Origin: an uncultured Thalassolituus sp.
GTDB taxonomy: Bacteria; Pseudomonadota; Gammaproteobacteria; Pseudomonadales; Oceanobacteraceae
Direction of reading: 5' to 3'
DNA length: 35,161 nt
Assembly: GCA_913054055.1 (NCBI GenBank)
Contig: CAJXIT010000002.1
Span: 1 to 35,161 of the forward strand
Below the pieces are notes generated by a model. That model saw only the letters and a program-made list of their open reading frames with translations, was not told where the DNA came from and made no database searches. This document shows, in pieces, positions 19,379-32,944 of this stretch (positions within the stretch are counted from its first letter, which is position 1; every line of letters starts with the position of its first letter). A program made the translations under genes and the position numbers.

Positions 19379-19567
19379 ATGTACATTTGTCTATGTAAAG
19401 GCATTACAGACAGCCAGATTCAAACCGCCATTGAAAAAGGCGCTGACTACAAAGCCCTGCGTGATGAACTGGGTATCGCAACCGATTGCGGCCAGTGTGG
19501 CAACTCGTGTAAAGACATGATTAAGTCGAATCAAGGTGTTCAGTTTTATAGTGCTTCTCGCTCTTAA
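19379..19567 (+). CDS. bfd: Bacterioferritin-associated ferredoxin
   Basis: A 62-residue [2Fe-2S] protein that docks to bacterioferritin and delivers electrons to release stored iron. Cluster ligands are visible in the family pattern: CLC at 4-6 (MYICLCKGIT) and CGQC at 37-40 (DCGQCGNSC). The frame is open upstream to 19319, but the ATG at 19379 gives the family length and has GGA 7 bases before it. It is monocistronic, with a candidate Fur box upstream and a strong terminator downstream. No bacterioferritin gene is in the window. Confidence 0.92.
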   Translation: MYICLCKGITDSQIQTAIEKGADYKALRDELGIATDCGQCGNSCKDMIKSNQGVQFYSASRS

Positions 19568-19592
19568 CCGGTAATCCTAAATCCGTTTCCGA

Positions 19593-19625
19593 AAGCCCAA
19601 GATATTGCTTATCTTGGGCTTTTTT
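19593..19625 (+). terminator. Rho-independent terminator after bfd
   Basis: Perfect 12-bp stem AAGCCCAAGATA/TATCTTGGGCTT (19593-19604 and 19610-19621), 5-base loop, followed by a T-run. It is 26 bases after the bfd stop. Confidence 0.93.
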
Positions 19626-19648: not shown

Positions 19649-19782
19649 GGCCAGCCCTCTGGCCGATTCATATGCCGATTCATCGCGCACGGGGTGCACT
19701 CGTACGAGGCCAGCCCCCTGGCCGATTCAGTATGCCGTTTCATCGCGCACGGTGTGCGCTCGTACGAGGTCAGCCCCTGACC
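19649..19782. repeat. Array of alternating hairpins, period ~60 bp
   Basis: Two hairpin types alternate. Type A: GGCCAG-n4-CTGGCC at 19649-19664 and 19708-19723, and GGTCAG-ccc-CTGACC at 19768-19782, where both arms changed together (C to T with G to A). Type B: GCGCAC with GTGCAC or GTGCGC at 19685-19699 and 19745-19759, each preceded by CATC and followed by TCGTACGAGG. The repeat unit is 59-60 bp. Type B reads on the minus strand as CGTACGAG followed by a palindrome and GCGATG, similar to the TGTACGAGC-headed REP at 15343. It lies between the bfd terminator and the methyltransferase gene. A 61-codon frame across it is not a gene. Confidence 0.8.
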
Positions 19783-19837: not shown

Positions 19838-20572
19838 ATGGCCAAGTCCATTTTCAAAACCTACGACCAATACGGCACCATCGAGGTATTGGACAGTGGC
19901 GCTAAACGTTATTTAACCTTTGGTAACGAACACGAACAAAGCCTACAAGTTAAAGCCACCCCACATATTCCTCAGCACGAATATGGCCGCGCCATTATGC
20001 TAAGCCTATTGTTCTGCCAACCAAAATCCGTTTGTATTATGGGCCTGGGGGGCGGCACGCTGACGCAAGCATTTTTACATGCGCTGCCTGATGCAGACAT
20101 TCACACCGTTGAATTGCGAAGCATGGTGGTGAAAGTGGCTAAACGCTTCTTTCAAATAGATAAACACACTCATCTGAATATTCATAACCAAGATGCCAAT
20201 GACTTTTTAGGCGAGACTCAACAACAATTTGATATTTTAGTCGCGGATATTTATTTACAAGATGGCATTGATCACGGTCAGTTACAGGCCGATTTTATCA
20301 AAAAATCAGAACGGGTTTTATCGGATACTGGCTGGTTGGTTTTAAACTACTGGCTGGATCATGATCTCAGCCCTGCCCTTTTAGAGCAGTTGCAAGCAAG
20401 CTTTGAATGCTTGTATGTGTGTAATAGTGGCGGTGGCAATACAATTATTTTTGCAGGAAAAACTCAACCACCAGCGGATTATTTAGATAAGACCAAGGTT
20501 AAGCCTTTGGCTAAAACCTTGGGGTTTTCATTAAATTACTATTTAAAGCGATTACGAGCGTTTACTGCGTAA
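19838..20572 (+). CDS. Spermidine synthase-like methyltransferase-fold protein
   Basis: A 244-residue protein of the spermine/spermidine synthase superfamily. The Rossmann SAM-type motif IMGLGGGTLTQAF (~68-80) is followed by the acidic strand end HTVELRSMVV and by DILVADIYLQDG. It lacks the N-terminal tetramerisation domain of bacterial SpeE and is shorter (SpeE ~285 aa), and the putrescine pocket is not convincing, so polyamine synthesis is not certain. This group is often annotated as spermidine synthase or fused-MFS/spermidine-synthase-like. Shine-Dalgarno AAGGAG sits 9 bases before the ATG. Its tail overlaps the convergent protease gene by 21 bases, so both stop codons lie in the other gene. 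Confidence 0.82.
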   Translation: MAKSIFKTYDQYGTIEVLDSGAKRYLTFGNEHEQSLQVKATPHIPQHEYGRAIMLSLLFCQPKSVCIMGLGGGTLTQAFLHALPDADIHTVELRSMVVKVAKRFFQIDKHTHLNIHNQDANDFLGETQQQFDILVADIYLQDGIDHGQLQADFIKKSERVLSDTGWLVLNYWLDHDLSPALLEQLQASFECLYVCNSGGGNTIIFAGKTQPPADYLDKTKVKPLAKTLGFSLNYYLKRLRAFTA

Positions 20573-32841: not shown

Positions 32842-32849
32842 CCCCTATC

Positions 32850-32901
32850 GGCCAGAGGATACCCAAAACATTTGCTACGCAAACGGCGCATGCTACTGGC
32901 C
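32850..32901. other. Convergent intergenic hairpin (GGCCAG...CTGGCC)
   Basis: Outer arms GGCCAG (32850-32855) and CTGGCC (32896-32901) enclose an inner hairpin TTTGC-TAC-GCAAA (32871-32883). The outer arms are the same as type-A hairpins in the 19649-19782 array. Possibly a shared element or a bidirectional 3' end. Confidence 0.4.
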
Positions 32902-32944
32902 TCCTAAGAGTACACCATACTAAATAAATGCTTCGGCTAATGTC

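Follow-up and report, generated by a model that had tools for sequence, protein, structure and literature searches.

A tandem array of GTAC-headed REP-type repeats, probably spread by a RAYT, in the genome of an uncultured Thalassolituus

Organisation of the array

The window, i.e. the complete 35,161-nt stretch of DNA analysed, comes from an uncultured Thalassolituus sp. (assembly GCA_913054055.1, contig CAJXIT010000002.1), and contains between a bfd-like gene and a methyltransferase-fold gene a series of short hairpins which, as read from the sequence at 19649-19782, are spaced at a 59/60-bp period. The features of this gap, together with a related repeat further along the window, are as follows.

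19379..19567, + strand: bfd-like gene (BFD-type [2Fe-2S] protein), upstream neighbour (PF04324, E 5.8e-10)
19591..19623, + strand: terminator-like hairpin of bfd, upstream of the array (14 pairs, then a T-rich tail)
19649..19664, + strand: hairpin B of a first, incomplete unit (GGCCAG CCCT CTGGCC), without a preceding TCGTACGA head (sequence)
19685..19699, REP on - strand with one G-T wobble there: hairpin A of unit 1 (GCGCAC GGG GTGCAC; sequence, pattern search)
19700..19707, no strand: shared palindromic head TCGTACGA of unit 1, each strand reading GTACGA (sequence, pattern search)
19708..19723, + strand: hairpin B of unit 1 (GGCCAG CCCC CTGGCC), then the tail GAT (sequence, pattern search)
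19724..19744, no strand: inter-unit spacer, near-identical to 19665-19684 and unlike the spacers of other arrays (sequence comparison)
19745..19759, - strand: hairpin A of unit 2 (GCGCAC GGT GTGCGC; sequence, pattern search)
19760..19767, no strand: shared palindromic head TCGTACGA of unit 2 (sequence, pattern search)
19768..19782, + strand: hairpin B of unit 2 (GGTCAG CCC CTGACC), carrying the compensatory change (sequence, covariation)
19838..20572, + strand: spermidine-synthase-like / methyltransferase-fold gene, downstream neighbour (PF01564, E 1.1e-8; PF05175, E 1.9e-6)
32847..32909, - strand: long-loop REP with a GGCCAG/CTGGCC stem, a loop holding approximately 40 nt and a decayed head that reads TTAGGA on the - strand (sequence, alignment)

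Three GGCCAG-type hairpins, spaced by 59 and 60 bp, are interleaved with two GCGCAC-type hairpins, and TCGTACGA separates the two kinds in both complete units, a central feature of the element which the preliminary description does not mention. The period of about 60 bp and the joint change of both arms to GGTCAG/CTGACC in the last copy, as given in the preliminary description, are both present in the sequence, and the GCGCAC/GTGCGC pairing described there holds for the second copy (19745) but not for the first (19685), in which the second arm is GTGCAC, leaving one C-A mismatch on the + strand that is a G-T wobble on the - strand. As the spacer is near-identical within the array and unlike those of other arrays, the window array probably grew by local duplication.

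A dispersed family of fused dimers

Copy numbers in the window's own genome were obtained from pattern, BLAST and covariance searches. The array gave 53 blastn matches, the pattern GCGCACNNNGTGCGCTCGTACGAGG with at most three mismatches gave 43 against 0 for the reversed pattern, and the head-and-tail pattern TCGTACGAN{14,17}CGAT, which fixes the GTAC head by design, gave 75 against 0. These 75 half-elements, of the form TCGTACGA-hairpin-CGAT, make up about 38 dimers, either solitary or in tandem. The dispersed unit of approximately 45 bp has the structure ATC-hairpin A-TCGTACGA-hairpin B-GAT, in which two inverted REPs point their heads inward and the GTACGA heads share four bases within the 8-bp palindrome, such that each strand presents one correctly headed hairpin with the layout GTAC-GA-6-bp stem-loop-stem-GAT. 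Solitary units, for example on contigs C9, C10, C24, C41, C56, C92 and C127, consist of the 45-bp piece alone between unrelated flanks, which identifies the fused dimer as the dispersed unit. Arrays occur in the window and on C77, C81, C147, C247 and C264, those on C81, C147, C247 and C264 being regularly spaced like that of the window, and their spacers are alike within an array and different between arrays, which points to local duplication as the origin of the arrays.

Nearly all distinct units (37/38) lie outside ORFs of at least 150 aa, and among the units that could be scored the flanking ORFs were convergent in 13 cases, in the same direction in 14 and divergent in 1. The GTAC head is found in nearly all aligned units, with GTAG in a few copies of the same genome (L016, L081). 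The latter locus, on C12, is a single GTAG-headed REP whose flanks are near-identical to those of locus L166 in the sister genome G003, and looks like a case of vertical inheritance.

The repeat at 32850-32901, noted earlier as a similar GGCCAG/CTGGCC pair, does have the same stem but is not a plain copy, given its long loop insert and decayed head. The insert (TAGCATGCCCC ... TTTGGGTAC) is found in both orientations within REP hairpins with other stems, in the window's genome and in the sister genomes G004 and G006. It is an imperfect palindrome of 38-40 bp, with copies at L258, L254, L251, L256 and L259 (own genome), L249 and L253 (G004), L190 (G006) and 32850-32901 of the window, among them the hairpins nearest the RAYT gene on C13; the column identity of the insert alignment is understated, since the copy on C101 was aligned in the opposite orientation. 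The insert may be a modular loop or, alternatively, a small element with REP loops as its target.

Pairing of the stems and the case for a local role

In an alignment of 33 units, whose selection for five or more paired positions in each hairpin leans somewhat towards pairing, 96.3% of stem cells were paired, two-sided stem changes numbered 39 against 9.9 in shuffles, and the covariation score was 0.275 against 0.068 in shuffles and at most 0.05 in slid versions. The 75 half-elements, chosen by head and tail alone with the stems left unspecified and therefore a fair sample for pairing, had 93% Watson-Crick stem positions against 68% (maximum 74%) when arms were shuffled between copies; six Watson-Crick pairs were present in 55/75, and 72/75 had at least five of six positions paired with G-T counted. 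Matching second arms occur for GCGCAC, GCGCAG, GCTCAC, GGTCAC, GGCCAG, GGTCAG and GGGCAG. The compensatory change in the window is one of many across the copies of the family, and the selection on the folded form that had been suggested from it is supported by the genome-wide covariation. Stems of 6 bp are common by chance, but the absence of matches to the reversed head-and-tail pattern and the excess of two-sided changes over shuffles reduce the probability of coincidental inverted repeats to a vanishing level.

The strand on which the fold might be selected was assessed from the stem mismatches of the 75 half-elements as a test of RNA against DNA selection, and no bias was seen, with G-T and A-C mismatches about equal (10 vs 9). 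As + strand RNA, a 146-nt stretch of the array folds better than all 200 shuffles (z -3.2), with a weaker fold for the - strand (z -2.2). This fold, and the gap of 55 bp between the array's end and the methyltransferase start codon, would suit a local RNA-level element, such as a UTR structure, an attenuator or an mRNA-stability element, between the two genes. However, the array is absent from the bfd-methyltransferase gap of the sister genomes G002, G004, G005 and G006, in which the genes are adjacent, and from that of G007 and G008, in which a bacterioferritin-like gene (read from the sequence) lies between them. Further, dozens of copies of the unit lie at unrelated sites, a terminator-like hairpin belonging to bfd itself precedes the array (weak by count, with one found and an average of 0.9 in shuffles), a search for a sigma-70-like promoter at the locus found none, and the balance of G-T and A-C mismatches shows no sign of selection on one RNA strand. 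A local RNA-level element is therefore very improbable, and the action between bfd and the methyltransferase gene proposed in the preliminary description is rejected as the main role of the array. Its absence from the locus in six sister genomes indicates that it is most likely a species-level insertion and not a conserved control element. There were no matches to Rfam families in the window at the gathering score.

Relation to known REP systems

REPs are strictly defined by a 5' tetranucleotide GT(A/G)G (PMC2817692, PMC3686654), and as the head here is GTAC the family is filed as a REP variant rather than a strict member. Other features of REPs are present, namely a G+C-rich stem-loop just after the head with complementary changes, dispersed and mostly intergenic copies, albeit with 75 half-elements below the >100 per genome that is typical, and a RAYT gene, on C13, flanked by inverted copies. 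The GTAG-1 type REPs associated with group 3 RAYT/TnpAREP in the Pseudomonas, Xanthomonas and Marinomonas REPtrons (PMC3733652, PMC8266576) have the same layout of head, GA, short perfect stem, short loop and tail (GAT/GAA), are likewise intergenic, form inverted pairs and tandem arrays, and have copies flanking the RAYT gene; they differ in their GTAG/GTGG head, whereas the present family has GTAC, a single overlapping head for two REPs and fewer copies. The REPs of E. coli have a bulged stem and a GTAG head (PMC8266576), in contrast to the short, unbulged stems and GTAC head found here, and CGTC REPs, with an unpaired CGTC head, a stem of 8-9 bp and no transposase association, are unlike these RAYT-flanked repeats with 6-bp stems.

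The alternating REPs and regular head-to-tail repetition of BIMEs are seen in the 59/60-bp window array, as they are in the regular tandem arrays of E. coli with their alternating REP orientation, and the window array is a BIME-like array of REP-type repeats. The earlier guess of a compound REP-type element is supported by the many genomic copies, the covariation and the RAYT gene flanked by copies. In REPINs the heads are outside with a spacer between them, corresponding to Di Nocera's HH dimers. As with REPINs (Bertels and Rainey 2011, PMC3116915), an inverted REP doublet is the apparent spreading unit and tandem clusters include the flanks, but the solitary units of the window's genome are fused, with heads inside and no spacer, and in the sister genome G002 both arrangements are seen. 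In the TT dimers (PMC3733652), too, two REPs are inverted with the head ends turned towards one another; the closest described lie 1-2 bp apart, whereas the heads here overlap by four bases, an overlap which is possible only because GTAC is its own reverse complement.

RAYT genes associated with the repeats

Three Y1_Tnp genes are present in the window's own genome. That at C13:17794-18237 matches NF047646, the NCBI model for the REP-associated tyrosine transposase (RAYT), with E 1.3e-37, and is intact, with an HIH motif and a candidate catalytic Tyr in the expected C-terminal region as read in the sequence. Copies of the family, both long-loop and ordinary units, lie to either side of it, the nearest hairpin on each side having the long insert in its loop. 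Its near relatives whose flanks were read, in the window's genome and in G006, are flanked by REP-type hairpins. A second intact-looking RAYT (C110:3439-3876, L195) is flanked by ordinary GTGGGA-headed REPs (GTGGGAGGGCGCTTGCGCGCGAT), indicating that two REP systems coexist in this genome.

A spread of the units by another enzyme, or by recombination alone, with an incidental association to the RAYT, would accord with the contribution of local duplication evident in the array spacers and with the sister genomes G005 and G007, which carry units and in which no RAYT was found. These are drafts, 90% and 72% complete respectively, and the flanking of RAYTs by REP-type hairpins in the window's genome and G006, together with a fused-head RAYT locus in Marinomonas aquimarina, makes such a coincidence quite unlikely.

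Distribution and head types among sister genomes

Across ten genomes of the genus, covariance-model matches, counted on both strands of the nearly symmetric unit, numbered 128 in the window's genome, 109 in G002, 156 in G007 and 46 in G005, and 0-7 elsewhere. Fused-head units are present in the copies read from G002, G005 and G007. The GCGCAC..GTGCGC hairpin has an ordinary TGTAGGA head in the copies read from G003 and G009, identical hairpins bear unfused GTAC or GTAG heads in G006, and heads-outside dimers stand side by side with fused dimers in G002, such that some hairpins are shown to have exchanged GTAC and GTAG heads. At L313-L320 of G002, the same hairpins build both fused heads-inside dimers and heads-outside REP dimers, the latter with short gaps of about 2-24 bp. 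RAYTs at L198 (G006) and L196/L199 (G002) are flanked by copies of one hairpin, headed GTAG or GTAC according to orientation, and the G002 RAYT copy is split, with an internal stop. An association of head type with tail base (GTAG with GAA/GAC, GTAC with GAT), hinted at by RAYT flanks, found no support (Fisher p 0.75 in G006 and 0.27 in G002).

A wide spread through the order was discounted, since in 391 other genomes, among which the window's genus was represented by G001 and G009 only, the fused head-and-tail counts did not exceed 8 and on the whole resembled the reversed control. One genome of the same order, G072, has a different repeat, TCGTACGATTAGGAAAATAATTCGCGAT, with at least four occurrences (e.g. 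C2:9295-9322). No pair of a filled and a clean empty site with an exact boundary was found among the genomes compared.

BIMEs of E. coli are bound by the host proteins gyrase and IHF. REPs of other species also bind host proteins (PMC2817692), and persistence of the present repeats as BIME-like exapted sites through such binding rather than RAYT action would suit their intergenic position, mostly downstream of genes. The strong turnover of copies and stems from species to species and the flanking of RAYTs better fit a mobile element, making exaptation an unlikely main explanation, albeit one compatible with spread by a RAYT.

A second fused-head family in Marinomonas

Among 80 RAYT relatives from other genomes, that of Marinomonas aquimarina is surrounded by five TCGTACGA heads with stems unlike those of the window family, and this genome has 69 fused-head half-elements against 0 in the control, mostly with other stems. 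In M. ostreistagni, head-and-tail matches numbered 8 against 1 in the control. A tree of 87 RAYTs unites the M. aquimarina protein with two Marinomonas RAYTs having GTAG-headed flanks (support 99/96) and the RAYT of the window's genome with those of G006 (support 93/91), and its well-supported branches force the fused-head label into two changes. These separate clades favour separate origins of the fused-head arrangement in the window's genus and in Marinomonas, the alternative being loss or transfer of the repeats.

Proposed mechanism and implications

The repeats were probably moved by a RAYT, and it is highly likely that the window array consists of tandem REP-type repeats whose units were spread by the genome's own RAYT. 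The substrates of group 3 RAYTs are single-stranded DNA hairpins that are short and generally perfect, and in Marinomonas the REP head lies two bases from the stem (PMC8266576). In the likely mechanism, the C13 RAYT would recognise the folded single-stranded hairpin and its head, and would cut and join next to the hairpin, thereby dispersing units to intergenic sites; the stems would be maintained through paired changes because the fold is what is recognised, and arrays would arise when a unit is duplicated locally together with its flank. The head of the Marinomonas sp. MWYL1 RAYT substrate selects the cleavage site by complementarity, and with an engineered GTAC head cleavage shifted to GA and GT (PMC8266576), from which GTAC heads are predicted to guide cleavage by the present RAYT to GA or GT and not to CT or CA. 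Against this reading stand a head other than GT(A/G)G, the abolition of cleavage by the Stenotrophomonas RAYT with GTAC (PMC8266576), a copy number below the >100 typical of REPs, and the units in G005 and G007 without a RAYT match. In a search of the openly accessible literature, GTAC was found with RAYT and REP sequences only as that engineered mutant (PMC8266576).

A broader and more tentative proposal, which may well prove incorrect, is that these repeats form a natural REP subclass whose guide head has switched from GTAG to GTAC, with cleavage at GA/GT instead of CT/CA, the self-complementary head allowing two inverted REPs to collapse onto one as a compact mobile unit, with separate origins in the window's genus and in Marinomonas.

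The prevailing view, that the REP head directs RAYT cleavage through base complementarity in the manner of IS200/IS605 elements, was tested on engineered substrates; a natural GTAC family with GTAG-headed sister hairpins and adjacent RAYT genes provides a ready-made comparison for head guidance. That a REP pair can dispense with its spacer entirely, as the fused heads suggest, is relevant to the identity of the mobile unit, and GTAC-headed families such as this one would escape any REP search based on GT(A/G)G.
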